A stretch of DNA of 64,000 nt from Orobanche coerulescens (taxonomy: Eukaryota > Streptophyta > Magnoliopsida > Lamiales > Orobanchaceae): NCBI GenBank assembly GCA_033398695.1, contig CM065815.1, positions 98,422,501 to 98,486,500 on the forward strand. The letters run 5' to 3'. Below are positions 18,111 to 47,486 of the stretch, piece after piece. Position numbers and translations under genes: made by a program. The notes under the pieces are model-generated. The model ran no database searches. It was not told where the DNA came from and saw only the letters and a program-made list of their open reading frames with translations. The first letter of the stretch is position 1. The number at the start of each line of letters is the position of its first letter.

Positions 18111-18234
18111 TTCACGCGTCCTTGCCTTCTTGCTGAAACTCTGCAGAAATTTCCGAAGCTTCTTGTGCCGATCGTCCTCCTTTTTCTTTTTAGGTAAGAA
18201 AACCAATCTTCTTTCTCCCTTTATTTTTCATAAT

Positions 18235-21499: not shown

Positions 21500-21911
21500 G
21501 CCTTGTATTTAAACGAAAGGTGGCCGGTCTTGGTCTGGAGGAGTCCTTGCACGGGGCGTCGTCGGTTTATTCGACTCCACGTCCGTGGCTTGTTAGCTCT
21601 GCTTCCACCTCGGCCCGCCATGAAGATGGTGACCCTCGACGGTGTACGTTGAGACGGGGGTAGTGGCACGTCGCATTGTTCGGGTTCACCACATTAGATG
21701 ATGAACCTTTGAGGGCGGGCGATCATGTCCACTGATTAGTTTTGGAGGGGCCTCAGACTACGTCGGCCTCGTATTTAAACAAAGGGCGGGCGATCTTGGC
21801 CCAAAGGGACCTTGCATGGCCGAAGCAGTCGGTTCTATCGACTACCAGGACCAGGGCTGCACTCTTCTACCTCGGATCGTCATGTTAGATGGCGACCCTC
21901 GACGGTATACG
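21500..21911. repeat. Two-copy direct repeat (~265-bp period) in the Tat spacer
   Basis: 21500-21648 and 21765-21911 share 'gtatttaaac', 'ccttgca(c/t)gg', 'tcggtt(t/c)' and 'gaccctcgacggt(g/a)tacg' in the same order. The repeat lies between the 3' ends of two converging transcripts (antisense gene and integrase). Confidence 0.6.
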
Positions 21912-22007
21912 ATATGCCTGGTGGGGCGATCGTTAGAATAGATGGGATAGGAAGAAATCTCATTATATTCTTTGTACACTGGGTAGTTGAAACTGAATAC
22001 AAAATTT

Positions 22008-22853
22008 TCACTGGTAGTTCTTCTTCAGGTGAACGGCGTTCCAGGGATTTTGATCCGGAGTACCGTCGGGGTGTTCAAGTTCGTATGCTCCCTTGGTTAG
22101 CCATTTAGATATCCTGAAGGGGCCTTCCCAGTTCGGGCCAAAAACACCTGTGTGGGTCTGGATCTTTTTGAGGACGAGATCACCCACTTGAAACCTTCTT
22201 TCCTTGACCTTCGAATTGAAGAACTTCTCGGATCTCCTTTTGTGTATTGTGTTCTTCATTTCTGAGGTCAATCGTCATTCTTCGAGCATGTCGAGGTCGA
22301 TCCGTCGGGCCACATCATTGTCGGTCGTCATCTCTTGTTTGGTTCGATGGCTGAGGACGGCAATCTCCGAGGGGATCACCGCTTCTGTTCCGAAGGCGAG
22401 GGCGAATGGGGTTTCGCCGGTTGAATTACGGGTCGTCGTTCGATAAGACCACAAAATGTCAGGGAGCTCGCTCGCCCACCGTCCTTGCCTGGATTCGAGT
22501 CGTGCTTTAATCGTGTGTTTGAGGATTTTGTTCACGGCTTCTACCTTCCCGTTCGTCTGAGGGTGGTAGGGGGCCGAGAACAGCCTCTTGATTCCCCACT
22601 TCTCGCAGAATTGCATGACTTCTAAGCCGTCGAACTGCTTTCTGTTGTCGGAGATGATGGCCTGGGGTAGACCGAATCGGCATATGATGTTTTTCCAGAT
22701 GAACTTGATTACTTGTTCTTGGCCGATCTTGTTTAGCGGTTCGGCTTCATCCCATTTGGTGAAGTAGTCGACCCCTACGATGGCAAACTTACACCCCCTA
22801 GCGCTGTCGGCAAGGGACCTATAAGGTCGATGCCCCATTAGGCGAAAGGCCAT
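22008..22853 (-). pseudogene. int: Integrase core and C-terminus, Tat element C
   Basis: DDE integrase: first Asp in VGVDYFTKW, second in ISDNRKQF (usual consensus has Gly where Arg stands), Glu in NGKVEAVNKIL. It is followed by the conserved ELPDILWSYRTTTR, GETPFALAFG and the C-terminal FQVGDLVLKK...FGPNWEGPF fold. One in-frame stop lies at 22275. Its frame differs from the upstream RNase H/HHCC segment, so there is a frameshift near 22855-22865. Confidence 0.85.
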
Positions 22854-22864
22854 GGGCTATACAT

Positions 22865-24058
22865 TCAAGTGAGCTGCTCGGGGGAGAGTTTGATGTTTAG
22901 TCCCATTACTTGACACCTATGACACGATCTGGCATAGGCGATCGCATCCTTCTGAAGTGACGGCCAGAAAAAACCTTGCCTGGTTGTTTTATGGATGAGA
23001 GCTCGTCTGCCAGCATGGTTTCCACAGATCTCGTCATGGATTTCGGATAAAACGAGCCGACCTTCCTCCGGTGTAATACACTTGAGGAGGGGAAGGCTGA
23101 AAGCTCGCTTGTAAAGCCGATCGTCCAATAGGGCGTATCTGGTCGCACGGAGCTGGAGTTGGCGAGCTTTGATACGGTCGTCAGGGACCATTCCATCTTT
23201 TAAGTATTTGATGAACGGAGTCATCCAGTTCTCCTCGGCAACGGCGACTGTGGTAACCAGGTTTCTGTCGATTGATAGCCTTGCTGATTTTGTAATTTGG
23301 ATATTAGAGAAGTCGGCTGCCCCATCTGACGACGCTAGCTTGGATAGGGCATCGGCCTGGGAGTTGTGCTCTCTCGGGACTTGTTCGATTAGCACTTCCT
23401 CAAATTTCGTGCACATTTCGGTGACCAGCTCTTGGTATTTGACCATCTATTCGCCGCGCGCCTCATATTCTCCTTTGACTTGGTTCACGACCAAGAGGGA
23501 GTCCATGAAGATATGGAGGCGACGAACATCTAGGGAGAGGGCTAGATTGAGCCCGCCTACCAAGGATTCGTATTCGACTTCATTGTTGGTCGCGCGAAAC
23601 CCGAAACACACGGCATTTGTGAAACTTTGTCCATCTGGACTGATGAGGACTATCCCTGCCCCTGCTCGGAAGTTGGTCGCCGAGCCATCCACATATAGCT
23701 TCCCGGCAGGTCGGCCGATCTGGATTGGACCGTGAGGGAATGTTAATTCCACCACGAAGTCTGCCAGAGCTTGGCCTTTGATCGCCGTGCGAGGAGCGTA
23801 TGTGATACCGTATTGGGCGATCTCCAGTGGCCACTTGAGGAGTCGCCCGTTGGTGTCTGGCCGGTGTAGAACTTGCCTTAGAGGTAGAGTTGTCAGAACT
23901 TCCACTTGATGTTCAAAGAAGTAAGCCCTTAGCTTGCGAACACTCATGACTAGAGCGTAGGCGATCTTCTCCAATGGTGTATACCATGTTTCTGCGTCGT
24001 GGAGTGCTTGACTAACGTAGTAGATCGTCAAGTGGACTTGTCCATCCGCTCGCACCAA
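22865..24058 (-). pseudogene. RNase H (two domains) and integrase zinc-binding region, Tat element C
   Basis: 24058-23447 holds the end of the first RNase H (YYVSQALHDAETWYTPLEK) and then the start of the archaeal-type second RNase H (KLYVDGSATNFRAGAGIVL). After one stop the same frame goes on to 22865: REHNSQADALSKLAS, then the HHCC zinc-binding module (EIHDEICGNHAG...CHRCQ). A dual RNase H is characteristic of Tat elements. Confidence 0.85.
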
Positions 24059-24087
24059 AACGGCACTCAGTGCGACCTCCGAGGCCG

Positions 24088-25119
24088 CTAGGTAAAGGAA
24101 TAATTTCTCACCGGGATCGACTTTGCCAGGATCTGGGAGTTAGATAGATATTCCTTGATTTTGGCGAACGCTTCTTGACTCTCCTTCGTCCATGCGAACT
24201 TCTTGTTCTTGATGTTCGCGAAGAAAGGCTTACTTTTATCGCCGAGCCGAGATATGAAACGGTTGAGGGCGGCTAGACAACCTGTGAGTCGTTGCACCTG
24301 CTTGACATTCCGTGGCTCCTGCATGTCGAGGATTGCCTGAATCTTGGTGGGGTTCGCCTCGATCCCCCTTTTGCTAACGATGTGCCCCAGGAATTTTCTG
24401 GAGCCCACCCCGAAGTTGCATTTCTTGGGGTTCAATTTCATGTTGAACTTCTCGAGGATGGCGAACGTCTCAGCGAGATCATCGAGGTGGTCTTCCTTCT
24501 TAAGGATTTTGACCACGATGTCGTCAATGTAGACCTCCATGGTTTTACCGATCTGATTGGCGAACATTCCGTTGACTAGACGCTGGTAGGTAGCCCCCGC
24601 ATTCTTCAAGCCGAACGACATTTGGAACCAAAAGTATATGTCCTTTTCCGTGTGGAAAGATGTGTGCTTTATGTCTTTCTCCGCCATTGGGATTTGATGG
24701 TATCCGGCGAAGGCATCCATGAACGACATCATTTCGCAAACTGTTGTACTATCGACCAAGTGATCAATATGAGGCATCGGAAAGTGATCTTTTGTACATG
24801 CCGCATTGAGGTCGGTGAAGTCGATGCACAACCTCTAGGAGCCAGTTGGCTTTTTGACGAGCACCGCGTTGGCGACCCATTGTGGATCGTCTGTAGTTAC
24901 TCCGATTAGTTTGTTGTTGAGTAGCTTTTTGACCTCTATGTCGAGCGCCGCGTACTTCTTAGGACCGAATTTCCTACGTTTCTGGTGAACAGGTTTCCTT
25001 GCCGGGTCGATTTTAGGATAGTGGCAGGCGTGTTCAGGACTTATGCCAACCATATCTTGATGCGACCAGGCAAAGACTCCGATGTTCTTACGTAGTAAAT
25101 TGATCAGTCCCTCTTTCAA
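24088..25119 (-). pseudogene. Reverse transcriptase, Tat element C
   Basis: 25119-24835 has the N-terminal RT motif (KEGLINLLRKNIGVFAWS, then VLVKKPTGS). After one stop (24834) the frame continues to 24088 with CIDFTDLNAACTKDHFP, MSFMDAFAGYHQIPM and the catalytic YIDD in EVYIDDIVVK, then LGHIVSKRGIEANP. Only the two carboxylates of YIDD are needed for catalysis, so the active site itself is kept. A frameshift separates it from the gag-protease frame. Confidence 0.9.
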
Positions 25120-25361
25120 TTCGCAATCGATGCTTGCGCCGATCTGTACTTCCCGCTCCGGGCGAACAGGATCTATCGTTACATTTTCTAACTCTTCAAC
25201 GGGGACGGTCGCCTCTCGTTTGGAACGATTTCCGGACTCAATTCTTGGATCGATGTCGATACTTGGCTCGAAACCGATCCTTGGCTCGATGTCGTCCGTT
25301 AATCGATGTGAGATGGCGTCCTCTGAATTGAGTTGGTACGATGTGCTTGGCTCATCGATCT

Positions 25362-27797
25362 CTATGGGTTGATCGTCGATCGTTTCAATGTTTTACACAT
25401 AGCATGGGTAGTATTGAAAGAAGTTACGACATAGGAGTAGTTCAAACATTTCTTTGCCATTAGCTGATCTCCTTTTACAGTACCGACCGTCCCATAGGCT
25501 GTGGGGAATTTGATACAGTAAAAGAAAGACGAGGTGACCGCCTCAAAGGTTTCTAGAAACGGACGACCTAGGAACCCATTATAGATGATGGGCCTATCTA
25601 TGATTACAAAATTTAGGTTCCTAGTAATCCTAACCTTGGGATCGTAAAAGCATATTAGCTCGACAGAGAGCTTGATCCTTCCGTAGGCTTGGACTGTGCT
25701 GTCGCTGAACCCTTGAAGCATGGTGTTGAACGGCTTGATGAACTTGGTTAGATTGCCGAGCTGGTCAAGAGCGGACTTGAATATGATGTTGCAGAAGCTC
25801 CCGTTGTCAACCAGCACGCGGTCGACCATCTTCCCAAGGATACAAGCAGAGATCACCAATGCATCCTCTTTGGGGCATTGTACTCCCTCCCTGTCCTTGT
25901 TGGAGAAGGAGATGAGCGCATCTTTAGAGATGGTCGGCTCTGGAGGTACCACGACATGGACCCCGGCGAACGCCCTTAGTTCGGCCTTTTTCTTCCTGTT
26001 TGACATGGTGGAAACCGGGGAAAGGACCCCGAGGTTTCCACCTCCTACTTGAAGCATATTAATCCGACCGCCAGGGTTGATCGGAGGGATCGATTCATCA
26101 GAATACTCCGGCTCATGCTCGATCCTGGCGACCGAATTGGGAGGGGTCCTTTCGTTTTGTCGGCGCTCGCGCCTTCCGGTCCTCTCTGTCCTAGGTTCTG
26201 GCTTGGTGACCAAGTTGTCCAATTTGCCTTCCTCAAACAGTCGCCAGAGTTGTCTGAGGAGGTCGCGGCATTGGCTCGTGTTGTGGCCAGGACTCTTGTG
26301 GTAGGCACAGAATTTGCTACGGTCTAGATGACCGTGGTTCCTTATCGGCTTTGGTTTGGATAGCCATTCGTGCCCCTTGATCGCGTTGAAGATGTGGGCT
26401 GGAGATAAGTTGAGGTTGTGGAGAAGGTGGACCTCCACATCTTCGAAGGCTTTGAACTCACTAGGCGGCTTTGCGACCGCCTTTCTGGGCTTGGCGACTG
26501 CCTTCTTCTGGACGTGGGACGGCGCCTTCCCTTCCCCGGAGGGTCACTCGCCCAAGCGGAGGGAGAGCATCCTTTGCCTGGCCAGGAAATCGGCGGCTCT
26601 GACGCGGAAGACCGAGTAGGTCGGAGGGATGTCCTTAGTGAGGTGCCTGAACATGGGTGAGTGGCCGCAGAATCCCCCCAGGACTGAGTAGAGGGTGAGC
26701 TCGTCGCTGATGGGCTCGCCGGTGAGGACTATATCGTCTACCCGGTTGATGTAATCTTCATCTGATTCATCCTTCCCTTGCCTGATTTTCATCATGCGGT
26801 GGGGGCCTTCCGGACGAGTGACTTTGGCGGCGAAGTACGACGTAAAGTCGTTCGCCAGCTTCTCAAAGCAGTTGATTGAGCGAGGTGGCAGTGAGATGTA
26901 CCACCTGTGGGCGAGGTCGCCCAGAGTTAATGGGAACATTCGACACTTCGTCGTATCTGATGCTCCGCATCCGGTCATGTAGATCCGGAATTTGCTTAAA
27001 TGGGTCTCCGGATCTGATCTCCCCTCATACGGAGGTGTTTGTGGGGGAGCGATCTTCGGTTGTACTGAGGCGAGCTCGATCTGGACCGCGAGTGGTTCAC
27101 TTGGTCCAGCGATCGATCTCCTGGCGCCTGCCCCAGTTTCCAGGAGCGCCTTCATCTCGTCGAGCTGGCGCTGCATGGCGGCCATCGCCGTCGCCTGACT
27201 GCTCGCTGATTGGCTCCCGGAGCGCGAGCCAAGGCGATCGTGCACAGATCCCTTGGCCCGATGGTGGATGATGAGTTCCTTGCCAGCGAGCTCATTTCTT
27301 GGGAGAGCGGGGGCTTGCTGACCGGCCTGTCTTCTGGGAGTCGGATATGCCGAGCTCATGGTAAAGGATTCGGATACCGATGTCTCCCAGCTGGGGCATG
27401 AGTGCCCGGGTCGCCATGAGGGATCGCTTCCCAGGCGGCTGAAGACGGAGTCATCCCGCCTGACGAGAGCCTTCTCCTACGGCTCGGGGCTTTCTGTCGA
27501 TTTCTGAACATAGATCCCCTTGAGTTTCCGCTTGCCTGCTCAGCGGATGGCTGACGGAGTGATGGTGGGCGATTCGCATGCCCTCCGTCGCTCCCTGAGG
27601 ATGGCTATAGCCTCCTCAATCTGTTCCGCAGTCTGGAACTAATCGAGTGAGAGGCTAGGACCATCCCTCGGGGGCGGGAGTGAGAGCCTTGCGTCGTCGT
27701 GGTCGCCTTCCGCCGTGGGCTGGGATTCGGTCTGGGCCGGAATGAGGTTTCCGGCAGATCGCAGGGTGGCTCTCTTGGAGGTCATTGCAGATGTCAT
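25362..27797 (-). pseudogene. gag: Gag-protease, Tat element C
   Basis: One frame can be followed from the ATG at 27797 to 25362, broken by in-frame stops (near 27640, in 27480-27560, and at 26544). The retrotransposon Gag domain lies at about 27090-26560 (PYEGRSDPETHLSKFRIYM, then LGDLAHRWYISLP). A zinc-knuckle-like FCAYHKSPGHNTSQC is at ~26310. The aspartic protease motif is VLVDNGSFCNIIF (~25800), with DNGS in place of the usual DTGS/DSGA, a known Tat variant. The segment from 27797 to 27359 is degraded; 27359 is an alternative in-frame ATG. Confidence 0.8.
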
Positions 27798-27925
27798 TTT
27801 TCTGAAGGCTTTTCTTTTGAAGAACAGTGAGTGTTTCTTCAAGTATATGTCCGGAGAACAGTGAGTGTTCTTCGAGACGGTAGGAATAAAAATAAAGGTT
27901 TAGGTCCCCTTCTTCTAGCGCCAAT

Positions 27926-28882
27926 TGTTGTTACCCAAAATATTATCCGGAGATAGTATTGCTGGAACGATCGAGTAACAAACAAATGCGAGAACACTTC
28001 CACGGGAAAATAAATAACACAAGATTTGCCGGGGTTGTTAATCCCGGGCTTGAATGCTCTCGCGAGATGTTATTAATAAATATACTGTGGAGTACAAATA
28101 TTAATGTTAGAATCTATTACAATGAGTGTAAAGACTTCTAGTTATCTAAGTTGTACAGCGTGTAGATTGCCGGAAGAACTAGATATGAAGATCTGTGAGT
28201 TCTTGCTTGGGATGTATTGTAAGTATGTATGGATATCAATATGAATGTGTAAGTAATTGCCAGATGAGTCTATGATCTCTCTGTGTGTTTTGCACTTGTA
28301 TTCATGGTAATCACAGCCTCTCCTAGCCACTGTAGTGAGCCTCCTATTTATAGGAGATAAGGTTGATGGGACCTCTCCGGCGATCGCGGGCGACCGCCAT
28401 TTTCTATATTATAATAAGATGGCCGATCGTTCCGTCTCGTGAGGCTGTTCTCTTAAAGTCTGGGGCTGCTGCTGGCGGCCAGCTGTGCGAGCCAATGGGG
28501 ATCCTGCACGCGTCCTGAGTCACTGTCCGGGGAGGACCCACTTTGTACCTTTCGGCGGCCCTGTCGGTAGGTGAGGTAGGTGACAGGCTGGGGTCAAATG
28601 TCTTATCTGTCGGCGCCCTTTGTGGATCTGCACGTGGGCCACCGTCTAAGATTCGGTCTTCGACGACTTTGACAGATGTTGGATTCATACGTGGCACGAG
28701 ACGATCGTCTCCGGTTGGGCATTTATAGACGATCGCCAATTAACAAAAGACGATCGCCGGATACCGAAAGACGATCGCCGTGGGTGCCGACTGCTGGGTG
28801 TTTGCCCAGAGTATGTCTTCTATGGTAGACTATCTGATTGTTATGCCGATCGCCTTCGAGTTTTATTAATCGCCGCACAACA
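27926..28882 (-). repeat. Tat element C, 5' LTR
   Basis: 957 bp, paired with 16778-17737, with about 25 scattered differences. The minus-strand TATA box is at about 28343-28355 and the same CGATCG motif field lies at 28377-28858. Unlike elements A and F, this 5' LTR keeps its upstream motif field. Confidence 0.9.
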
Positions 28883-29094
28883 AACTTAATCATCAAAACA
28901 CTATTAATACATGTATGGAACAAAATGTTCCAACAATCTCCCCCTTTTTGATGATTACAAAACAACACTTCGTCAATGGAATTTACCTACAAAAATACAA
29001 ATATATGTATATGTGTACAGACTAAAATTTTCGACTTTGTCCATTACGTTAGTTTCTTCTCCCATTTCTTTTTCTTCAACTCCTTCTTTCCTTT
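28883..29094 (-). mobile_element. Copia element D: end of second LTR plus start of a further internal region
   Basis: 28888-28935 completes the second LTR (ends TTCCAACA). It is followed not by host DNA but again by the polypurine tract and the start of the pyrimidine-rich internal region (28936-29094), matching 13640-13798 with few differences. So this LTR also served as the 3' LTR of another copy to its right, of which only ~160 bp remains. The order LTR-gag-LTR-internal shows a tandem structure truncated on the right. Confidence 0.8.
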
Positions 29095-30958: not shown

Positions 30959-31754
30959 TGTAATACCCGGTTGTAATTCATTCATTATCATTCAGTAATT
31001 ATAAGTCAGTAATTGTTACTCAGTAATTTTCACTCATTAATAATCACTCACCATTCATGATTCATTCATTTGTATTCGTCGTTGGCATATTTTTAACCGT
31101 GTATTATATGTCGGATCATTCACCTTTCGTAACGAGAAGACGGAGTTGTCGGACTGTGTCATTTCCAGCAGCGAGTTACGACCGTAACGGATCATGCATT
31201 ACGGCCGTAACATGCATTCGTTGGCCTAATACTTGTTTGATATAATACCCCAATGAACTTGGTTTAGTCGTATCGACGTTTTGAGTTAGTTATAATTGTG
31301 TTTGATTTGTATATTGAACGGATTGTTGGTAATTGTGTTATTCAAGGTTGTTCGAGCGACCGACACCTCATTTAGGACGTTTGTTCGTGGAAGGACATTC
31401 TTCACCGGTGTTGTGTAAGTTAATTCTTACTCGGTTAAAAGGATATTCATTCCTTTCATTGTTGTTTAGTCATAATCATAATCCATTCATAATGTATTAA
31501 CTGTATTGAGACTTGTAATTGTCGAATAATCACTTCATTCACGAGGAACGACGGTTCCAATAATTTCATTGAGCTATCACTCACTTCACTATTATTTCAT
31601 CTTGGTGAGTCATTCTTAACTTTGTCGGATTGTTATTCATTAATATTCATCATGGTCATTCTCGTTCATATGACCTTCTGGGTTCGTATTGCGTGGCCGG
31701 GTGGTGATGTGTGGAATTTTTAGTCCGGCATATGATGGTCACGTGTTCGGGTTC
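30959..31754 (+). repeat. Element A 5' LTR, first part, promoter deleted
   Basis: Starts TGTAATACCCGG. Compared with the 3' LTR it lacks ~134 bp (equivalent of ~50417-50551) and ~905 bp (equivalent of ~50675-51600). The second deletion removed most of the TTACGGCCGTAA array and the TATA box; only two distal motifs remain (31175-31206). It ends at GGTTC, the target of element F. Confidence 0.85.
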
Positions 31755-33537
31755 TGATGGACAAATTATATACTCGCAAGTGTACGAATCGCTTTTGTAG
31801 GAAGCGGCAAGTAACTCCGAGGTCGATCTCTCGAGGAATTAAAAACGGTTTAAAGTTCGATAATGTTCGGCAAATAGTCGAATGAACAAAAGTAAAATAA
31901 ATTAAAATACATCATTGGTTGATAGGTTTACAATTAATAACGTATAAAAATAAACAAAGCGATAACAACACCAAATTAATTATCGGATAATTGAGAGATT
32001 ACAATAATGAGATTGATATGGGAATTTAGAGTCACCGACACACACGTAATCAATTATTAGTTCCGATACTCAAATAAATAAGGTTTGGAATTATCGATTG
32101 CTCACGATTAAAAGAAATCCATTTGATGGCGGTAATTCTAAAAATCACGATTGTTCTTTTCGAAAATAAGAGATACTCTTTTGATGGGGACGAATCTCTA
32201 CTAAAAATCGACTAGCTAATACCTTTGATGGTGTAATTCGCTAAAAGATCGCGGAAAAAGGTTTAGAACATTCACAATCACTTCTATCGGGTTGTTTAAT
32301 GGCGAACACCGACAAAAACCCTCGATTTGAATAATAATAACAACTAAGAAATAGGTTTGATGATCTAAATCAAAAGTTCTTAAACGAAGAACAAACAAGA
32401 GGAACAATCCCAAACTTTTACCCGGAAAATCAATAGAAACTAATAATCGATAGCATGTGTGTGGCTCAATCTAAAAACCCATACGAAAAGATTAGCTACA
32501 CATGATTATTTCAACAACAATAATGGAAATTGAAGAACAAAACATGGTAGAAACTTCCCTTGAAAATGCCGAAATTGAATTCCCGATGAAGCTTTGATGT
32601 TCTTCCTTCAAAAACTCATGACAATTGATGCAAGAAAATGTAATATCTCACAAATGTATTTTTCACTCCAAGGACATACAAGGAAGATGATGAAACAATC
32701 TCACTTTTTCCTCACTTTTTGGTGTTTTCTCTTTCAATCTTGTGTTTTTCCACCCCAAAATATCTCCCACAAGATAAGAATATCTCACCTAGGGTCTCCA
32801 CACCTTATTTTATAGCCAAATGATCAAGAAAAGGGCTCAAAATTGTGCAAAAATGTCAAAGAAAATGACTTGCACCGAAAAGTGACACGGCCCGTGTCCT
32901 GGGACACGGCCGTGTCGTACTACCCTGAAAACAAGAAAAAGTGTTCTGTCCACAGACCCGGCCGTGTCCCATGACAAGGCCGTGTTGTACTGCACAGGAA
33001 ATACATTTTAGGCTGGATAGGGGCTCGGCCGTGTCCCATGACACGGCTGTGTTGTACTGCACAGGAAAATGGGTTTTTAACTGTAAAGAGACCCGGTCGT
33101 GTTATATGGCACGACCGAGTTGCCTGGTGCGGCCCGAGTTGTTTTCTTCTGTTTTGATTCCGGTTTTTGGTCTTCTTCGACTTGATCCCTCGTTCTTGTA
33201 TCAATACACCTCGGATTTTAGCATATGATATACCTTTTCGAAGCTAATTTCACGAGGAATTTATATCAATGGAGAACACATCTCAATTCGGAGTGGTGAT
33301 TCTGGAATTTAGAAGATTCGACCGATACTGCTTCAATCTTTTGTCGTTTTAGGCCCCGTTTTAGCTCTTGATCCAATATTAGCTATGAAAACGCATATTT
33401 CACCACAATCTTCGCTTGGTTACCTATAAATTAAAAAAACACAACATACCACGCATAAAAGAGAACAAAAATACTAAAAACCAAACAAAAACACGACTAG
33501 ATAGAACAGAATGAGTCGATCAAGAATCGACTCATCA
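31755..33537 (-). repeat. Element F 3' LTR (1783 bp)
   Basis: Contains the full palindrome array at 32883-33120 and the TATA box at 32806-32814 in minus sense. It differs from the 5' LTR mainly by the ~280 bp that the latter has lost. Confidence 0.9.
32805..33120 (-). promoter_or_regulatory. Athila LTR promoter: ACGGCCGT palindrome array and TATA box
   Basis: Four units of ~60-80 bp each bear two copies of CGGCCGTGTC/GACACGGCCG, including the perfect 14-bp palindrome GACACGGCCGTGTC (32903-32916). In minus sense the array lies ~70 bp upstream of GGCTATAAAATAAGG (32803-32817). The unit ends in gtactgcacaggaaa. Confidence 0.75.
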
Positions 33538-35012
33538 AACCCCCCAAACTTGAACTTTGATCATCCCGAGCAATGCATTTTAAAATAATCACTCACAAAG
33601 GGAGAACTCAACTGTCAAAATACCTCAAAGGACCTCTTCGAAAATTTCATCAATACTCACAAGTAAAATAAGTCGAGTTCTACAAAGTTTTCAAACCTCC
33701 GGGGTGCTTTCTTAACATCATAGTCAATATCTTGGCAATATAAACCTCACCGGTCAAGTGTATTCACACACTCTCAAAGTGATAGGGATAAATATACGCT
33801 CGGAACTCATTCAATGAAATAAGGAAACCCATAGGCTTGCCAATCGTCTTCATCTCTACCACTGTCTTGTGCATGCGATATTTTCGTGAATCAAAAAGGG
33901 CTTTACTCGGCTTGTAATGTAGGCTTGGGTCGAGGTGGGATAAATATGGCTAAAGTGACTTGACTTGAGCAATTTTTTTTAGAACTATATCACCATATTC
34001 GCTTTAAAAGCCCAAGATTTTTGAAGTTTCCTACTTTCATCCCCTTAATTATGAATTACTTGCAACAAGCACTATCGAAAGTGAAAAATGCAGCGTCAAA
34101 CCCTCCTTATTGCTCCGATTTTTTTTTTTTTTTTTTTTGGCTTGGGTTGTTTTAGGATCCGTTTTACGCAAATGTAAACGATGGGTCACATGAATACACC
34201 CGGTTACTAGGATCAAAACATACACAACTGCTTCCAAGCATACTCATATCTAAGGTAACCGTTTTACGCGAATATAAACATGGGTCACATGAATACACCC
34301 GGTTACTAAGTTTCCAAAAATAGCGGAGTAATTATTTTCACCAATTCAACACTCCCAACAATATGTATATCACCCAATGTCACCACAATCTTAGTATCCT
34401 CTTCAAAAATATTTTCTAATCGCTCAAGTATGGATCGAAGGATTATAGTAATTGAATGCTCGATATGTGGTTTAAAAATGAAATAGATAATGACCTCAAT
34501 TGGGTTTATTTAAGGAATGATCAAATGTTGGGTTGGCCAAAATCGAAGGGTTAGGATCAAAGGCGCCAAAAAGCATTTTCACTCAATTTTCACACACACT
34601 AGTGGTTTTAAACAAGATACCAAGGCAAGTTCTAGAGTCTTAACTCGAGAATGAAACACTCGACAATGAAACTTGCATTTTAGAAAATGCACGAAGGCTC
34701 AATAGCTCACAAGTAGGTTTGTTCATACCTCCAAGATATTTAAATTACTTATTCAATTTCACACCCGTTTCGATTATCAACAATTTTTCCTCTACAAATT
34801 ATCCTCGATTTGTATATCAAAACAACGAATTAAATCCCGAGGCATTTCAAGAAAAGAGTTCATACTTCAAAGTTTTAATCAAATTTGCAAAATGCTCAAA
34901 ACACACCAAATGTAAATAAAAACACACCACAAATAAGTCTACTACCAAAAACAACCAAAATTAAACAAACAAGCATAATAGTATCCGAAAACAAATAAAA
35001 ACAAGAGTAATG
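33538..35012 (-). other. Element F 3' non-coding region
   Basis: No supportable ORF. It holds the polypurine tract next to the LTR (aagtttggggggtt in element sense, 33538-33551). A ~55-bp direct repeat (34154-34210 and 34259-34308) shares 'gggtcacatgaatacacccggttacta'-type sequence. There is also a T(18) run (34120-34138). Confidence 0.6.
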
Positions 35013-35115
35013 AAGTATTTCTTGACCAATCCCCCCCCAAACTTGAATTAAAGAATATACGAACGAAGGGGGTATAGTATTTAAATGAAAGAATTTCATT
35101 GGTCAAGAAATACTT
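35013..35115 (-). other. 18-bp perfect inverted repeat with a second polypurine tract in the loop
   Basis: AAGTATTTCTTGACCAAT (35013-35030) is the exact reverse complement of 35098-35115. In element RNA the 67-nt loop ends in TTCAAGTTTGGGGGGGG (35031-35047 on plus, as C8), nearly identical to the genuine polypurine tract next to the LTR. It begins ~7 bases after the stop codon (35122-35124) of the env-position ORF. It could be an extra plus-strand priming site, an RNA structure, or the scar of an old LTR end. Confidence 0.7.
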
Positions 35116-35124
35116 ACGACCGGT

Positions 35125-36472
35125 TTACTGGTGGGGCGGAGGGAAGTGGCCTTGCTGGACATGCCACCCGTGCATTTGTCTCACAAGAGATAATATCTCG
35201 TGTCGCTCCCGTCTAGCCTCCTGTTGCCTCTGTCTAGTTTCCTCTCGGAAGGCTACGAACTCCTCCCTTAATGTTGGGCCGAGGGGGCACGTCCAATCTC
35301 GTGCTTTCTTCTTCTTTTTCTTCGCTCTCTTCTTCTTCCTCTTCATCCGGGCCTCTTTCATAAGCCTCCTCCTCTTCCATCCTCTCGGCTCTATCTTCAT
35401 CCATAATGCGCCTAGGTCGAACATTTCGGTCGAGAGGTCTGTGACCCGGGGAAGCCAATCCAGCTGATATCCATGCTCGTCGATGTGCCTCCGTAGCCAT
35501 TTGCAGATTTCCCATGTCCCGAATATTATTTATGATTGTCAAAGGCGGATTCGGGAAAAGGAAATGGTCATTGTCGATCTGGAGGAAGACTGTGCGCTGT
35601 TCATAGTCCAGGATGTTCATTACCTTCATCACGGAGATCGAGAGTAGCTTATTTCCTAGAAGGGGGGTCCTCTGAGCTAAGGAAATCTCGAAGTGAAGTG
35701 CGATAGGGGTAATCAAACCCCCTATCCATATCTCCCCCTTTGGCTTTGTCGCGACATCCTCAAAATGTTCTGCTACCATAGCCCCGATTGCTGGAATTGA
35801 GTTATCGAGCATGTGAGTTAGGATGTATAACTCCCGCAGTGAAATGGGCCCGGTTTCCTTTCAGCCATATATAGTATTCGCAATCACCTTGTGTAGATAT
35901 CAAAGTATTGGATTGCGAATGTTTGATCCTTTAGCCGATCTTGCAATATAATATCGCGCCTCGCTCCCCAGGTATTCCACCATAGCTCTCCAATAAGTTT
36001 CATGTGCGAACCGGTTTATCGGGTAATGGCCGTTGTGTCTTGCATGATAAATTTCTTCCAGCTGGACGATGGTTAGTATCTCTTCATTGTTGTTGAGCCG
36101 GAATGTCATTTCGGTTGGTTCTCGAGTCACCGAATATCTTCTGACAGTAAGAGTGCTGAGAAACTCCACCGTGAGACATCTATAAGTCGACCATTGTTGT
36201 GTCATCATCCACGCCCAATTCACTCTTTCAAGGAATTTCATCACGTCTTCTCTTATTCCCATTGCGTTCATGCATTCGTCATCGGGCCATCTCGTAGGGA
36301 GCATCTTTTTCTGACCCAGCATTTCCCACCTTCCATATTGTGCTTCAGGGAGTTCGATTCCATAAGAATCCGGAGTTTCCACAGCCCTTTGAATAGCCAT
36401 TCTTGCCGGCTGAACTTGTTCTCCGCCGTTCCTACCCATTCCGCGTTGAGAATTTCCTCGTCCTCGTGCCAT
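35125..36472 (-). pseudogene. Athila-family ORF in the env position
   Basis: It starts at ATG 36472, three bases after a splice acceptor. The frame goes to 35234 with two TGA stops (35900-35902 and ~35864). It carries the ATHILA ORF-1 family pattern: WAWMMTQQWSTYRCLTVEFLS, MTFRLNNNEEILTIVQLEEI, then LYILTHMLDN and IGGLITPIALHF, then a Glu-rich acidic tract (~35290-35350). A frameshift near 35270 moves the C-terminus to another frame (LREEFVAFREETRQRQQEAR) that ends at 35125. No signal peptide or membrane helix is evident, so calling it an envelope is by position only. Function unknown. It seems to have its own promoter and a leader intron. Confidence 0.75.
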
Positions 36473-36475
36473 TTT

Positions 36476-36826
36476 CTGTAAAAAAAAAAAATTTAATTTA
36501 TCATTTATTTAAGGACTTGATAACGTATTCCACCCCCAAACTTATAGCAAACAATGAAATACCCCCAATATAAACATTATTGATCAAAACAACTCCCAAG
36601 CAAAATTTATCGTTTGAATTCATCATCTTCATCATGGAAAACATCCCTTAACTACAAGAATTTCCAATCGAGAAATTTAATCATCAAGCATGAAGAATTA
36701 TCGAAAATCCCCAAATTTCATCACCTTCAATTTATTCAAGAACCCTAGATAATCAAGGACTAGTGATTCTAATTACCATAGCATGTTCATAACCAAGAAT
36801 AATCATCAAAAACATGAGAAACATAC
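36476..36826 (-). other. Predicted 5'-UTR intron of the Athila env-position ORF
   Basis: In minus sense the donor is CAAG|GTATGT (intron starts at 36826). The acceptor is a T-rich run (36481-36491) ending TTTACAG (AG at 36477-36476). The exon then reads AAA ATG, where the ATG is the ORF start at 36472. The intron is AT-rich and 351 nt long. This is a textbook plant leader-intron layout. Confidence 0.6.
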
Positions 36827-37420
36827 CTTGATTTCGGAGATATTGAAGAGAGAATAAAAAAATTAAAAACCGATCCCAATTCGTCCGATTGTCCCCCTTG
36901 AAGAGTGAAATTGGTTGAAAAATGATGATTACGTAATTGATTCTTGTATCTCTCCTTGATTTTGCACAAAATTCCTTTGAAAATGAAGAGAAAAATCGAA
37001 AGTATTGATGCTAGGGTTCGGAGGGAAGAAAATAAAAATCTGGAGAAGATGAAAATGGCGATTCGGCCGTGCTTCCCTTTATAAAGGACCGACTGACACA
37101 GCCGTGTTGCATATGACACGGTCGTGTCGAACTATACGGAATAAGCAAAACTCACTGCCTCATCGACTCGGCCGTGTCCTATGACACGGTCGTGTCGTAC
37201 TCTCCCAGAAAATCAAAATTTCACTGTCTTGACACCCGGCCCGGCCGTGTCCTGTGACACAGTCGTGTCATGCTGTTCAAAATAAGCACAAATCGACTTT
37301 TTAGACACTCGGCCGTGTCCTGTGACACGGTCGAGTCGTGCTGTTCTAGAAAATAAAATTCCCCCTGTTTTGCGACTCGGCCGTGTCAGATGCAACTCGA
37401 CCGTGTCCAACCTACCCAGA
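36827..37420 (-). promoter_or_regulatory. Internal promoter-like region: palindrome array, TATA box, leader exon
   Basis: Five ~70-80-bp units (about 37095-37420) carry CGGCCGTGTC...GACACGG(T)CGTGTCGTACTG, the same unit as in the Athila LTR (32883-33120). In minus sense the array is followed by CCTTTATAAAGGG (37076-37087), a good TATA box, then by a leader (gaaccctagcatcaa..., ~37050-36827) that ends at a splice donor. The arrangement copies the LTR promoter and points at the env-position ORF. Confidence 0.65.
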
Positions 37421-37548
37421 TTGTTAGTTTCTGATAACGCACTCGTTTCCTGCATTTTTAACACCCACAGTTGAACCGGTCAGTTTCGAATCGAGTAAAA
37501 ACAAATAAGGAAAATAAATTCGAAAAACAAAAGACAAAAAAAATCTAA

Positions 37549-40500
37549 CTAAACCGTTGGGTTGCCTCCCAAGTGTCCGAAATACGGCTTCACTCTATGC
37601 CCGTTTACCTTAAAGTGCTCGTTCTTCCGTGGATCAAGAATTTCTACTGCTCCGTGTGGCCATACTTTAACGACCTTAAACGGTCCGCCCCATCGCGATA
37701 CCAATTTTCCGAGCATGAGCTTAAGACGGGAGTTATGTGACAGAACATCCATCCCGGGTTCGAGAAATTTGCGAACGATACGCTTATCATGATACCGTTT
37801 CGTCCATTCTTTGTAGAGTTTAGCATTTTCGTACGCCTCATATCGCATCTCATCAAGCTCATTTAAATGTAAAAGTCGTTCCTCGCTCGCCTTTTCTTGA
37901 TCTAAATTGAGCGCTTTGATTGCCCAATACGCCTTGTGTTCCAACTCAACGGGTAGGTGACATGCTTTCCCAAATACTAGGCGATACGGGCTCATTCCAA
38001 TTGGAGTTTAATAGGCCGTGCGGTATGCCCATAAAGCGTCATTCAAGTTCAATGCCTAGTCCTTTCTTGTCGGTTTTACCATCTTTTCGAGTACTGCCTT
38101 TATTTGTATATTGCTCACTTCGACTTGCCCGGAAGTTTGTGGATGGTATGCCGTTGTGACCTTATGCATCACATTGTACTTCTTAAGAAATCCTGCAAGT
38201 TGTTTATTGCAAAAATGCGTGCCTCTATCGCTGATTACAGCTCTAGGCGTCCCGAACCTGCAGAAAATCACATCCCTAAAAAAATTGCAAACCACGTTAG
38301 CATCGTTAGTTCGGGTTGGAATTGCTTCCACCCACTTAGAGATGTAGTCCACAGCAACTAAAATATACTCAAAGCCATGGGAAAGTGGAAAAGGACCCAT
38401 AAAATCAACTCCCCAAACATCGAAAAGTTCCACAACAAGATTGTTTGTCAACGGCATCTCATTCCTTTTGCTTATATTCCCCGTTCATTGACAACGATCG
38501 CAACTCTTTCAATGGGAATAGGCGTCCTTAAATAATGTTGGCCAGTAGAATCCCGATTGAAGGACCTTGTGCGCCGTTTTCTTTGCGCTAAAATGTCCCC
38601 CACAGTGCAACTCATGGCAAAATAATAATATGCTTTCGTGCTCTTCCTCCGGGACGCAACGTCGGAATATCTGATCAGGCCCCAACCTGAATAAGTAGGG
38701 CTCATCCCAAAAGTAATGCCTGTACATGGAAACAAACCTCTTCTTCCCTTGATAGGTCAATTCGGGCTGCAAAACACCACTAACAATGTAATTGACAATA
38801 TCAGCATACCAAGGTGTCCTTGTTACATCGAATAATTGCTCGTCAGGGAAAGTTTCAACAATTGGCAAAGGATTATCGAGCTTAAAATTATCTCCCTCGG
38901 TTAACCTAGATAAATGGTCGGCAACTACGTTCTCCGAACCCTTTTTATCTTTAAACTCCAAATCAAATTCTTGCAGCAAAAGAACCCACCGAATTAATCT
39001 TGGTTTTGCATCGGATTTTTTTAATAAATATTTCAATGTGGCATGATCCGTATGCACAATTACTTTTGCGCCAACCAAGTAGGATCGAAATTTGTCTAAA
39101 GAATACACAACGGCTAAAAATTCTTTTTCGGTGGTAGTATAATTAGCCTGAGCTTCATCGAGCGTTTTGCTAGCATAGTAAATAACGTGGAAAAATTTAT
39201 TCACTCTTTGCCCCAAAACGGCACCAATAGCAAAGTCGGACGCATCGCACATAATTTCAAATGGGAGAGACCAATCGGGAGCAACAACAATAGGTGTGGA
39301 AGTTAACTATTCTTTCAAAGCATCAAAACCGACTAAACATTCCTCGGTAAAATCAAATTTGGCATCTTTGCACAAAAGGTTACTCAAAGGGTGGGCAATT
39401 TTCGAAAAATCTTTAATGAAATGCCTATAAAACCCGGCATGCCCTAAAAAGCTTCGAACTTCTTTGACACATGAAGACGGAGGTAATTTAACAATTAAAT
39501 CAATTTTAGCCTTATCAACCTCCATTCCTTTATTGGAAACCACATGACCCAGAACAAGACCTTGTTTTACCATAAAATGACTCTTTTCCCAACTAAGTGT
39601 AAGATTACACTCAATACATCGTTCTAGCACAATAGTCAAATTATTTAAACAATCATCGAAAGTGGTTCCAAACACAGAAAAGTCATCCATGAATACCTCG
39701 ATGGATTTTTCTAACATGTCGGAGAATATGGATAGCATGCACCTTTGAAAAGTAGCTGGAGCATTGCAAAGACCAAACGACATCCTCCTAAAGGCAAAAG
39801 TGCCAAAAGGGCAAGTGAAAGTGGTCTTCTCTTGATCCTCCGGAGCAATGGGAATCTGATAGAAACCTGAAATACCATCTAGAAAACAGTAATAATCATG
39901 CCCCGCTAAACGTTCCAATATTTGATCAATGAAAGGAAGGGGAAAATGATCCTTTTTTGTTACAACATTTAATTTTCGGTAATCAATGCACATTCTCCAA
40001 CCGGTTACTGTTCTAGTGGGCACCAATTCATTTTTATCATTACGAACCACCGTTATTCCAGATTTCTTAGGCACTACATGCACATGACTCACCCACTTAC
40101 TGTCGGATATCGGGTAGATGACTCCGACATCTAGTAATTTCAAAACTTCTTTTTTCACAACTTCCTGCATATTCGGATTCAAACGCCTTTGAGGTTGCCT
40201 AACCGGTTTAACATTATCCTCAAGAATTATTTTATGCATGCACCTAACAGGACTTATTCCCTTGATATCGGAAATACTCCACCCAATTGCTTCCTTTAAC
40301 TTAGTCAGAACTTCTACTAATTTGTTTTCTTGCAAGGGAGTTAATTCGGAAGAGACAATTACAGGGTAAGTGTCTCTTTTGCCTAAGAAAACATATTTAA
40401 GATTTGCCGGAAGTTCTTTCAATTCAAGTTGGGGTGGGGTGATTTCAACGGGCTCCTCAAATTTTAATTCCAATGGTATCTTAAAACCGTCAACTTCATC

Positions 40501-41406
40501 AATTGCTTCGGAATTATCTAACAATGCAACATATTCTTCAATTTCTAGATTATTCAGCCCCATATCATGTTCAATGGTTAGAGCATCATGCAACATGTCC
40601 CCTACATCATCATGCAAATATGTATCATTAACCAAAGAATCAATGCAATCAATAAAATTCACATCATGGGCAGCATAAATATGAGAAGGGATAGGAGATG
40701 AACCGAACACGTTGATTTCCACAGTTTCGCCCAAGACGGTCATGGTGACCTTTCCTTCATCAACATCGATGATTGTTTTTGTTGTACGCATGAATGGCCA
40801 TCCTAGAAGTATTGTCCCTTCATTTTCGCTTGTCCCGAAATCGCTCATCTCCAAGATAACAAAATCGGCCGGAATCACCAACTTGTCCACTTGCACTAAT
40901 AGGTCTTCAATGACTCCCTTGGGGTATTTCACCGACCTATCCGCCATTTGAAGAGTCATTCTTGTTGGTTTGATTCCCCCGAGTCCAAGCCTCAAATAAG
41001 TCGAGTATGGCATGAGATTCACACTTGCTCCCAAATCTAACATCCCACGAGCAACTTTCTTATCTCCCATAGTGATGTCGATCATAAAACTTCCGAGATC
41101 GCCTTTCTTTTGACCCCTTACTTCTACCTCGTAGAGCACCACTTTCTCTTTCGCATTGTATCTTCTTTTGTTGGAGGTCAACTCTTTGAAAAATTTTGTA
41201 TAAGCGGGAATGTTCTTCACAACATCCAAAAGAGGTAAGTTGACATGAACTTTTGAAAACATGTCGTAGATTTCGGAAAATTGCTCATCTTTCTTTGCTT
41301 TTCTAATCCGGCTCGGAAAAGGGATTGGTGGCTTATATGGTTGAGCGGATTTGTGAAGCTTGGAAGTCGAAGTTGCTTCGTCTATTTTCTCCTCTTGGTT
41401 TCCCGA
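37549..41406 (-). pseudogene. pol: Pol polyprotein of Athila element F: protease, RT, RNase H, integrase
   Basis: A single frame from gag to 37549 without any frameshift. Protease: MLDLGASVNLMPYSTY (~41060). RT: CIDYRKLNVVTKKDHFPLPF, catalytic VFMDDFSVFG (~39690). RNase [17 protein letters not shown] (39250). Integrase: [16 protein letters not shown]...CDRCQ zinc module, Asp in [11 protein letters not shown], Asp in ISDRGTHF, Glu in [11 protein letters not shown]-terminus: [19 protein letters not shown]. In-frame stops: 39304-39306 (TAG), two near 38470-38508 (TGA), one at ~38053 (TAG), one at ~37996 (TAA). The polyprotein would make the enzymes for reverse transcription and integration; this copy cannot. 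Confidence 0.9.
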
Positions 41407-43136
41407 CTAGTCCTCTTTCTCATCTCCCCTTTCTTTTACTTCGGAATTAGCTTCTTTATTAATCACTTTACCACTTCGGAGAGTGGTAATAGCTTGAGCT
41501 TGCTCGGGTTGACTTGGTAGTTTACCCCTTTCTTGTCTACGTGCCTCGGTAGCAAGTTGCCCAATTTGAATCTCCATTTTCTTCATCGAAGCTTCTAAAG
41601 ATTTGAACCTTTTATTGTTCTCCGCTCGGTTTTCCTTGCTCTCCTTAATGAATGCCGCAATACTCTCCTCAAGAGAGTTCCTTTGTTGTGGAGGTGGTTC
41701 ACTTTGCGTTGGTTGTTGGGCTCGGTTTCCTCCGTTGTATTGAGCTTGGGCGCTTGTGTCGTATGGCATCGGGTTGTTGTTTCTCCATGAGAAATTCGGA
41801 TGGTTTCTTAGCCTAGGATGATAAGTATTTGGGAGAGGTGCATTTCTTGCATTTCCGCCATAATTATTTCTCCTCTCTTCCCATTCGGGCCTTCCCGTGC
41901 TTTGTCGCATAGCCCAATTAACTTGTTCGGTTTGTTCTCCCGGAAAAGTATGAGGGCATGAATTGGCATCATGTCCGGGTGCTCCGCAAATCTCGCAAAC
42001 TCGTGAGCTAGAAGATTTATTTTGAGTCTTGAGTTGTCTTAGTTCATTTGTCAACTCATCGATTTTAGATTGCATCTCGTCCTTCTCGTTTACTTGGTGC
42101 ACGGCTCCCCTATGAACACGTACACTTTTTTGTTGAGAATTTTCTCCCAATGTTTCATACACATCATACGCTTGTCTCTCCGTCAAACCCCAAAACGAAC
42201 CACCGGCTGCATTATCTACCGCTCCTTGGCAATATTGAGTCAATCCGTCATAGAAGAATTAAGTAGTTGATGCGGATAGTGATGGTGTGGGCATTGAATG
42301 AGTAGCATTTTGAATCGGTCCCATGGTTCGTGAAATGCCTCTCCGTCTTGTTGTCCGAAAGTTGAGATTTGAGTTCTCAATTGCGTAGTCTTTGAATGAG
42401 AGAAGTACTTGGTAATGAATTTATCGTAAACTTCATCCCATGTTCTTAGTGAGCCGGGCGCCAAAGTCATCAACCATTGTTTCGCCCCATCCTTGAGTGT
42501 ATAAGGGAAGCACTTCATTCTTAGTTGATCCTTGCTCAACCCATTTAATGAGAAGTTGTCAATCGCCACATAGAAGTCTCGGATGAATGATAACGGATCC
42601 TCTCGTGCTAATCCGTGAAATGAGGGCAATTGCTCGATGTGAAATCCGCTTATGTGGTAGTTCCTTGTGGTCGGTGCTAATTGGATGCATGAAATGGCGG
42701 TGTTCACCACGGGCTTTGCATAGTCCCGCATTAAATGTTCGATCGGAGGTTGTTGAGGGATGTTGTAGTTTGCTTCCATCCCATATTGAGGTCCGGGATA
42801 ATAATTTGCTCCATATTGCACTCCAGCGGGTGGTTGTCTCGGATAGAAGTATCTCCCTTGTTGAGCTTCGGGTATCCCTTGATTGCGCCCAACATTCTCA
42901 TATCTCGGAAACCTTGGTTGACGAATTTCTTCCTCATCTATATTTTGTGCAACATTCTCAACCCTCGGTTGACGAGGGTTATCTTCTTGGAGCAAAAGTC
43001 GCTCTTTAAGATCCGGATTCACCTCGTCGTTTGCTATTGATGATGTGGCCATGGTTTTTGGTGCTCTAATCCTTTGAACTTCGTCTATGGGCGGAAGAAT
43101 CGGGTTACCCAACGATCTCCTACCAAGCATAAACAA
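41407..43136 (-). pseudogene. gag: Gag of Athila element F
   Basis: 43136-42240 holds the N-terminus and the retrotransposon Gag domain (FHGLAREDPLSFIRDFYVAI, KDGAKQWLMTLAPGSLRTW, YFSHSKTTQLRTQI). One frameshift near 42250 moves to 42243-41407 (TQYCQGAVDNAAGGSFWGLT), with the zinc knuckle CEICGAPGHDANSC (~42000) and a coiled-coil-like stretch before ITTLRSGKVI. A TAG at 41404-41406 separates it from protease in the same frame. In intact relatives gag and pol are one frame, so this TAG is probably a mutation. Confidence 0.85.
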
Positions 43137-43250
43137 AGGAAGTAAGAGCGAATTTTATCGAAATAAAATTGATCAAGAATAACAATTCAACTACTATTAG
43201 AACAAGATTAAAAATTAAACGCCAATTCCCCGACAACGGCGCCAAAAACT

Positions 43251-44755
43251 TGATGGACAAATTATATACTCGCAAGTGTATGAATCGCTTTTGTAGGAAG
43301 CGGCAAGTAACTCCGAGGTCGATCTCTCGAGGAATTGGAAATGGTTTAAAGTTCGATAATGTTCGACAAATAGTCGAATGAATAAAAGTAAAATAAATTA
43401 AAATACATCAATGGTTGATAGGTTTACAATTAATAACGCATAAAAATAAACAAAGCGATAACAACACCAAATTAATTGTCGGATAATTGAGAGATTACAA
43501 TAATGAGATTGATATGAGAATTTAGAGTCACCGACACACATGTAATCAATTATTAGTTCTGATACTCAAATAAATAAGGTTTGGAATTATCGATTGCTCA
43601 CGATTAAAAGAAATTCGTTTGATGGCGGTAATTCTAAAAATCACGATTGTTCTTTTCGAAAATAAGAGATACTCTTTTGATGGGGACGAATCTCTACTAA
43701 CAATCGACTAGCTAATACCTTTGATGGTGTAATTCGCTAAAAGATCGCGGAAAAAGGTTTAGAACATTGACCATCGCTTCTATCGGGTCGTTTGATGGCG
43801 AACACCGACAAAAACCCTCGATTTGAATAATAATAACAACTAAGAAATAGGTTTGATGATCTAAATCAAAAGTTCTTAAACGAAGAACGAACAAGAGGAC
43901 CAATCCCAAACTTTTACCCGGAAAATCAATAGAAACTAATAATCGATAGCATGTGTGTGGCTCAATCTAAAAACCCATATGAAAAGATTAGCTACACATG
44001 ATTATTTCAATAACAATAATGGAAATTGAAGAACAAAACATTGTAGAAACTTCCCTTGAAAATGCCGAAATTGAATTCCCAATGAAGATTTGATGTTCTT
44101 CCTTCAAAAACTCATGACAATTGATACAAGAAAATATAATATCTCACAAATGTATTTTTCACTCCAAGGACATACAAGGAAGATGATGAAACAATCTCAC
44201 TTTTTCCTCACTTTTTGGTGTTTTCTCCCTCAATCTTGTGTTTTTCCACCCCAAAATATCTCCCACAAGATAAGAATATCTCACCTAGGGTCTCCACACC
44301 TTATTTTATAGCCAAAGGATCAAGAAAAGGGCTCAAAATTATGCAAAAATGTCAAAGAAAATGACTTGCACCGAAAAGTGACACGGCCCGTGTCCTGGGA
44401 CACGGCCGTGTCGCACCTCAGATTTTAGCATATGATATACCGTTTCGAAGCTAATTTCACGAGGAATTTATATCAAAGGAGAACACATCTCAATTCGGAG
44501 TGTTGATTCTGGAATTTAGAAGATTCGACCGATACTGCTTTAATCTTTTGTCGTTTTAGGCCCCGTTTTAGCTCTTGATCGTCATAAACTCCAATATTAG
44601 CTATGAAAACGCATATTTCACCACAATCTTCGCTTGGTTACCTATAAATTAAAAAAACACAATATACCACGCATAAAAGAGAACAAAAATACTAAAAAGC
44701 AAACAAAAACACGACTAGATAGAACAGAATGAGTCGATCAAGAATCGACTCATCA
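43251..44755 (-). repeat. Element F 5' LTR (1505 bp), palindrome array deleted
   Basis: Matches the 3' LTR but lacks ~280 bp: after the unit nearest the TATA box (44380-44413) the sequence jumps to 'cacctcagattttagca', removing three of four array units. The TATA box (rc of ttattttatag, ~44302-44312) remains. Confidence 0.9.
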
Positions 44756-44760
44756 GGTTC

Positions 44761-46596: not shown

Positions 46597-47000
46597 CCTG
46601 CGTGTATCCTTTGTGATACTGGTGCATCGCATTCATTTATTTTCGAGTCATGTTTGAGTAGACTACTTCTAGATAGTTCCACTAGTTGTGAGCCTTATGT
46701 CATTGGTCTACCAGACGGTAGAAGAATTTTCGGAAATCGTGAGGTTAAGAAATGTCCAAATTAAGCTTAATGACCGCGATTGGTTGGCGGACCTAATCGT
46801 GGTGGATTTACCTAAGGACGATTTAATATTGGGTATTAATTGGATGGATCTTCATGATGCCATCCTCCGTGTTCGTAAGCATATGGTCACTATCATTTCA
46901 GACGATGGAGCCGAGTGTGTATTTCAGGGAAGTAATCTCAGTTGTTCCGGAAGAATCATTAATATGAGGAAAGCAGTGAAATTACTCAATCAGGGTTGTT
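46597..47000 (+). pseudogene. Aspartic protease region of element A
   Basis: The active-site motif reads CDTGASHSFIFESC at ~46609-46650. A frameshift near 46690 leads into 46688-47032, which has the linker WLADLIVVDLPKDDLILGIN and then KAVKLLNQGC. The coding sequence then runs into the 56-bp tandem repeat. Confidence 0.75.
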
Positions 47001-47486
47001 CAATCATTCATTGTATCATTGTCATCGATTGACCGTTCTAAGGCAATCGAGGTGTTCAATCATTCATTGTATCATTGTCATCGATTGACCATTATAAGGC
47101 AATTGAGGTGTTCAATCATTCATTGTATCATTGTCATCGATTGGCCGTTCTAAGGCAATCGAGTTGTTCAATCATTCATTGTATCATTGTCATCGATTGA
47201 CCGTTCTAAGGCAATCGAGGTGTTCAATCATTCATGGTATCATTGTCATCGATTGGCCGTTCCAAGGCAATCGAGTTGTTCAATCATTCATTGTATCATT
47301 GTCGTCGATTGGCCATTCTAAGGCAATCGAGGTGTTTAATCATTCATTGTATCATTGTCATCGATTGGCCGTTCTAAGGCAATCGAGTTGTTCAATCATT
47401 CATTGTATCATTGTCGTCGATTGGCCATTCTAAGGCAATCGAGGTGTTCAACCATTCATGGTATCATTGTTATCGATTGGCGGTGT
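46995..47486 (+). repeat. 56-bp tandem repeat inside pol of element A
   Basis: Eight full units plus a partial ninth, with starts of 'caatcattca' at 47001, 47057, 47113, 47169, 47225, 47281, 47337, 47393 and 47449. The last four units alternate two variants, giving a 112-bp higher-order repeat. Because 56 is not a multiple of 3, all three frames translate the same peptide in turn. It lies exactly in the protease-RT linker. Confidence 0.95.

Follow-up and report, generated by a model that had tools for sequence, protein, structure and literature searches.

Putative internal promoter with LTR-type palindromes and a leader intron upstream of the env-position ORF in an Athila element of Orobanche coerulescens

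Proposals for how env-bearing plant retroelements express their extra open reading frame (ORF) include splicing, readthrough and internal promoters. We examined an Athila-type Ty3/gypsy element, and in particular the sequence preceding its env-position ORF (ORF3), within a 64,000-nucleotide stretch of the Orobanche coerulescens genome (GenBank assembly GCA_033398695.1, contig CM065815.1, positions 98,422,501 to 98,486,500; this whole stretch is called the window, and coordinates refer to it). Within the same lineage, the transcriptional start sites, ORFs and intron of Arabidopsis thaliana Athila6A have been characterised in work that uses the terms “ENV ORF promoter” and “internal promoter region” (Genome Biol. 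2016, PMC4977677); an internal Athila promoter as such is not new. The element described here resembles Athila6A in belonging to the Athila lineage and in having promoter-like sequence (palindrome array, TATA box, leader) between pol and the env-position ORF; it differs in that the accessible description of Athila6A mentions no array of palindromes of the long terminal repeat (LTR) type (PMC4977677). Palindromic motifs occur upstream of the LTR TATA box in 13 Sireviruses, with CGG-CCG in all but one (BMC Genomics 2010, PMC2829016), and copies of such motifs in the linker of nine ENV-bearing Sireviruses (77 of 79 upstream of ENV) were offered in support of an internal promoter, the promoter itself not being conclusively identified (PMC2829016). 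The element here shares with them CGG-CCG palindromes both in the LTR and before the env-position ORF; whereas Sireviruses are Ty1/copia elements, it is a Gypsy element by its domain order and its PF03078 protein, so that it has the same design without being a member, and its array is followed by a TATA box, which is conserved, and by a putative leader intron.

Other systems compare more distantly. Grande gene23, carried by a plant LTR retrotransposon, is an accessory gene whose transcription starts at a promoter of its own (cited in PMC7264820), but it lies antisense to gag-pol, whereas ORF3 is in the sense orientation. Bagy2 likewise is a plant retrotransposon with an env-position ORF, but one expressed by splicing (PMC7264820). 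The genome of foamy virus contains, in its 3' part, a second promoter, and response sites for one factor occur there as well as in the LTR U3 (PMC3798896); this is an animal virus whose internal promoter sits within env and controls the transactivator Tas. An earlier note on the window, made by a model from the letters alone, had stated that it knew of no LTR-U3-like internal promoter described for Athila elements. As a statement about internal promoters this was too broad, given the Athila6A “ENV ORF promoter” (PMC4977677) and the Sirevirus palindromes before ENV (PMC2829016). No report of LTR-type palindromes in an Athila internal promoter was recognised in the literature searched, most subscription papers being outside reach, which is no proof of absence, and the accessible text of PMC1142308, PMC3276544 and PMC12844716 contained nothing on an Athila internal promoter. 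At this locus the Athila internal-promoter model acquires tangible components (array, TATA, leader intron), in a high-copy family that allows selection on each of them to be counted, and the occurrence of one type of palindrome array at both promoters, LTR and internal, as in the unrelated Sireviruses, points to common control.

The block at 37407-36476, read in minus sense, is probably an internal RNA polymerase II promoter, followed by a spliced leader, for the ORF3 of an Athila family, as judged from its sequence features and their retention in genomic copies. It opens with an array of five units holding ten palindromes related to GACACGRCCGTGTC (37095..37407, minus, by Tandem Repeats Finder (TRF) and motif scan). 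The ten 14-mers, each at three or fewer mismatches from GACACGRCCGTGTC, start in minus sense at 37407, 37387, 37337, 37319, 37269, 37251, 37196, 37178, 37128 and 37108; there are two per unit of about 68 bp, spaced 18-20 nt apart, and TRF reported a period of 68 bp with 4.0 copies over 37112-37387. One extra weak site (4 mismatches) lies beyond the internal TATA at 37073. At two or fewer mismatches the palindrome matched 34 times in the 64 kb (both strands counted, most sites twice) versus 0.28 expected, and 0 of 100 shuffles reached 34. All but two of the 34 matches fell within the internal array or the LTRs of the same element, the remaining two representing a single site at 1618.

The LTR counterpart was found in the U3 region of the 3' LTR (32884..33121, minus), with four units of paired palindromes (seven by scan, plus an eighth that carries one additional base at its centre) upstream of an LTR TATA from 32814. 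Its geometry is like that of the internal array, with 18 nt within the pair and 67-70 nt between units; across both arrays, pairs are 18-20 nt apart and units 67-73 nt. As in Sireviruses, CGG-CCG palindromes are clustered ahead of both the LTR TATA and the env-position ORF. The earlier note had taken the internal unit to be the very one found upstream of the LTR TATA and the promoter to be copied from the LTR. The common unit and geometry stand; the match is about 70% (best BLAST E 8e-14), it stops at the array edge, and the 5' LTR array is cut to one pair. The internal TATA is 11 nt past the last palindrome of its array and the LTR TATA about 70 nt past that of the LTR array. The 9 nt preceding the palindromes agreed between the arrays at 0.51 versus 0.26 ± 0.036 for random spacer 9-mers; with the palindromes masked, no spacer homology between the arrays was detected (198 of 500 shuffles reached the score). 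The copying of a whole LTR fragment into the element was ruled out, similarity being confined to the array, and copying between the arrays may have run in either direction. Among 29 elements an internal array resembled the LTR array of its own element no more closely than the LTR arrays of others (529 of 2000 permutations reached the observed mean), so that any copying would be old; the same comparison gave no sign that an element's two arrays have exchanged sequence recently or still do. Of four LTR elements in the window searched for LTR-like repeats in their interior, only this one had any, the remaining three giving none at E 0.01.

Downstream of the array the TATA box TATAAA (37078..37083, minus) is recognised from its sequence and its conservation in copies, and from its position transcription would be expected to start near 37055. 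There follow a putative leader exon of 234 nt (36827..37060, minus; 5' end approximate) that is free of ATG, and a putative leader intron of 351 nt (36476..36826, minus) that contains 16 ATGs and runs from a donor CAAG/GTATGT starting at 36826 to an acceptor TTTACAG ending at 36476, with the ORF3 ATG four bases on. The five-unit array before a TATA box, the two splice sites and the ATG had all been predicted by the earlier note, and each was found, almost to the base, where it had been placed. The TATA, leader and intron are without LTR similarity, and for the leader and intron nothing convincingly similar turned up elsewhere in the window either. This would fit a different origin, in which the 5' end of a plant gene, comprising promoter core, 5' untranslated region and leader intron, came in along with the ORF, the LTR-type repeats spreading into it later. 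The ORF3 leader and intron do resemble a plant 5' untranslated region with a leader intron. We hold such a capture to be improbable as the origin of the block, which functionally would still be a promoter.

Returning to the internal promoter with a spliced leader, when scored by approximate matrices the donor at 36826 came out first among the 671 GT sites of the element's strand and the acceptor at 36476 second among its 741 AG sites, and AAGGTATGT occurred once only when both strands of the 64 kb were scanned. This strong acceptor, with the ATG starting four bases after it, would also suit a retrovirus-like arrangement in which the internal promoter is inactive or minor and ORF3 is expressed from LTR-started genomic RNA spliced from a donor in the LTR/gag leader to 36476. 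A donor-like site does exist in the genomic leader at 43718 (AAGGTATTA); the env-like RNA of Bagy2 has been reported to be spliced (PMC7264820), and acceptor sites have been predicted for Bagy2 and Athila (PMC2829016). The element's top donor is nonetheless that at 36826 (10.6 bits versus 7.7 bits at 43718), and splicing of genomic RNA would leave the retention of the TATA and the palindromes unexplained; we give this arrangement a small chance of being correct.

C is richer in the leader (51/234) than in the intron (31/351; p 1.6e-5). From the composition of the whole interval 4.7 ATGs would be expected in the leader, with a probability of none (P0) of 0.009. We give the ATG-free leader modest weight as support for the leader and intron. 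The composition change point, tried as proof of the exon-intron border, was dropped when it fell elsewhere.

Conservation was assessed by searching the host genome (3.65 Gb) with the block, which returned 1669 first-look candidates, of which 40 were scored, with 41 rows listed; the block-selected set comprised 39 copies besides that of the window. TATA[AT]A was present in 39/39 (exact TATAAA in 25/39), a GT donor in 38/39 (AAGGTATGT in 35/39), and YAG before ATGGC in 35/39; TATA, GT and acceptor occurred together in 34/39. The leaders of these 39 copies held 13 ATGs in total and the introns 640. A second set of 20 copies was chosen by the ORF3 protein alone, from at least 150 listed matches (3121 first-look candidates); 18 had the TATA, 18 the GT (GTATGT in 16), all 20 the acceptor, and 17 all three. 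A diverged set comprised the six copies nearest the Orobanche gracilis ORF3 protein P0122, of 149 listed matches. Four of the six, at 76-80% identity, retain the array and GTATGT together with a variant of the TATA, with CAAG/GTATGT in three of the four and YAG before ATGGC (by pattern) in three of the four, and in the two of these block-keeping copies whose 3' LTR piece was read, that piece also had palindromes and a TATA. The block that the earlier note had proposed to look for in related copies is, in its array, TATA, donor and acceptor, kept in most of those examined, as is the ATG, and the own promoter and leader intron that it had assigned to the env-position ORF are to that extent supported.

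Within the block-selected set the letters TATA were invariant (0.00), the next two A varied 0.10 and 0.15, and the flanking columns up to 0.51; the forms seen among the copies were TATAAA, TATATAA and TATATAG. Palindrome columns of the internal array varied 0.065 versus 0.173 for spacers (2.7-fold, p 1.2e-5 with columns treated as independent), despite the palindromes being CpG-rich. The LTR arrays of 29 copies showed the same trend (palindromes 0.070, spacers 0.177), this set being what was left of the 39 after six copies without an LTR match and four of the 33 matched that lacked the TATA string used for cutting; conservation figures for the LTR TATA are partly circular and were not used. 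These comparisons bear on another reading, that of an inert array of tandem repeats such as are common in the pol-3' LTR region of plant Gypsy elements, with TATA-like and splice-like sites arising by chance or as relics. Tandem repeats have been described in Retand elements (PMC11963269), and palindrome number did range from 6 to 14 among the block-selected copies, as might be expected for such a repeat. An inert repeat would not, however, be expected to have palindromes far less variable than their spacers, in parallel with the LTR array, nor an invariant TATA island between variable columns, nor a unit geometry that is that of the LTR U3, and we regard it as very improbable.

Several points weigh against the reading as an internal promoter and spliced leader. 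Carrying the block was the very ground on which the 39 copies had been selected; the copies are related, variability was measured on alignments, and the p-values assume independent columns. Only 29/39 block-selected and 11/20 ORF3-selected copies had an ATG-free leader, and in the window such a leader is unsurprising given how poor in G it is (its composition predicts 0.85 ATG, P0 0.42), TGA and AGT being rare there too. The sharpest change in base composition was at 36978 (14.6) and not at the donor (11.2), the shuffle maximum being 10.0. The donor 9-mer is conserved but not exceptionally, 101 of 532 9-mers varying equally little or less. One of the 20 ORF3-selected copies had no upstream block, and two of the six diverged copies carried other sequence upstream of the intron end, the block being absent. 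A search for a spliced genomic copy by exact gapped pattern gave 0 matches, although this is a weak test.

If the block does act as an internal promoter, a host or element factor would bind the paired CGG-CCG palindromes as an enhancer array, as in the LTR U3; the TATA at 37083 would set the start near 37055; and removal of the intron 36826-36476 would take out 16 upstream ATGs, making the ORF3 ATG the first. The LTR promoter would then supply gag-pol and the internal promoter ORF3, under the same kind of control sites. Transcription of the block, its splicing, factor binding and co-regulation are what we infer from the anatomy and its retention. A more speculative extension, by analogy with foamy virus, is that ORF3 or one host factor recognises the palindrome pairs in both promoters, in a two-promoter circuit where the internal promoter would make ORF3 and ORF3 would act on both arrays, the CGG-CCG design having arisen separately in Copia Sireviruses and Gypsy Athila; we consider this unlikely.

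ORF3 is broken in the window copy, which is taken as the relic of a working design. Its first open piece (35903..36472, minus; ATG 36472) matches the ATHILA ORF-1 protein family PF03078 (E 3e-15) and has an RG-rich N-terminus; the second, in another frame (35237..35860, minus), continues the PF03078 match weakly (E 0.092, short of the family cut-off). The closest proteins in the protein database were four Orobanche gracilis gene models, three of which start at the aligned methionine; the model P0001, starting upstream of this common methionine, might read through a spliced leader but is ambiguous. A sunflower Athila ORF was reported to have partial similarity to Transposase_32 (related to PF03078) and a predicted nuclear localisation signal (PMC11728184). 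No membrane-spanning segment of the retroviral env type was found in the two ORF3 pieces or P0122, where the maximum Kyte-Doolittle 19-mer means were 0.35 and 1.52 (ORF3 pieces) and 0.97 (P0122). A structure model of P0122 had a mean pLDDT of 36.8 and was not used, and relatives were found in neither viral nor prokaryote contigs. On the 3' side of ORF3 a small minus-strand frame (34899-35102) has a hydrophobic stretch (19-mer mean 2.59) that is a possible membrane segment. The ORF3-selected copy without the block, L096 (G000:C12:9432200-9434400), is an internally deleted element in which LTR and primer-site sequence run directly into the ORF3 intron, gag-pol and the internal promoter being gone.

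The whole element (31755..44755, minus) was delimited by self-BLAST, LTR ends and flanks; it is nested inside another repeat and flanked by a 5-bp target duplication, GGTTC, at 31750-31754 and 44756-44760. The 5' LTR (43251..44755, minus; 1505 nt) has one palindrome pair left near 44412-44380 and TATAAAA from 44310, and the 3' LTR (31755..33537, minus; 1783 nt) is 97% identical to it over 31755-32920. The 5' LTR is 278 nt shorter than the 3' LTR and has lost most of its palindromes; the internal array still has five units. Gag (PF03732, by Pfam match) occupies 41407..43154 (minus), and broken pol pieces identified by Pfam and similarity (protease, reverse transcriptase (RT), RNase H, integrase) occupy 37549..41406 (minus). 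By Pfam the domain order is of the Gypsy type (gag, protease, RT, RNase H, integrase zinc-binding domain), with the reading interrupted by stops. The C-terminal integrase piece had 3066 protein matches, and among the 120 matches listed, the named ones with an organism given were from plants. Assignment to the Athila lineage is based on the Gypsy-order gag-pol, the PF03078 protein between pol and the 3' LTR, and an extra polypurine tract, an exact 15-nt copy (35033..35047, minus, 3' of ORF3) of the stretch at 33540-33554; Athila4 and Calypso also have an extra polypurine tract between pol and the 3' LTR (PMC2829016).

Another LTR element of the window spans 16777-28883 (LTRs 16777-17738 and 27925-28883), with gag and RT on the minus strand. 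Its 3' part has long open frames on the opposite strand (18130-19221 and 19998-20852) without a Pfam match, and it is perhaps a Tat/Retand-type element with antisense ORFs. Letters like GGCCGTAAGGCC were seen in short tandem repeats of other repeats, including one LTR pair (52719-52800, 58211-58302 and 1656-1909). A further tandem array at 46997-47481 (56 bp x 8.7 copies, 92% matches) lies immediately ahead of RT-like sequence on the plus strand.
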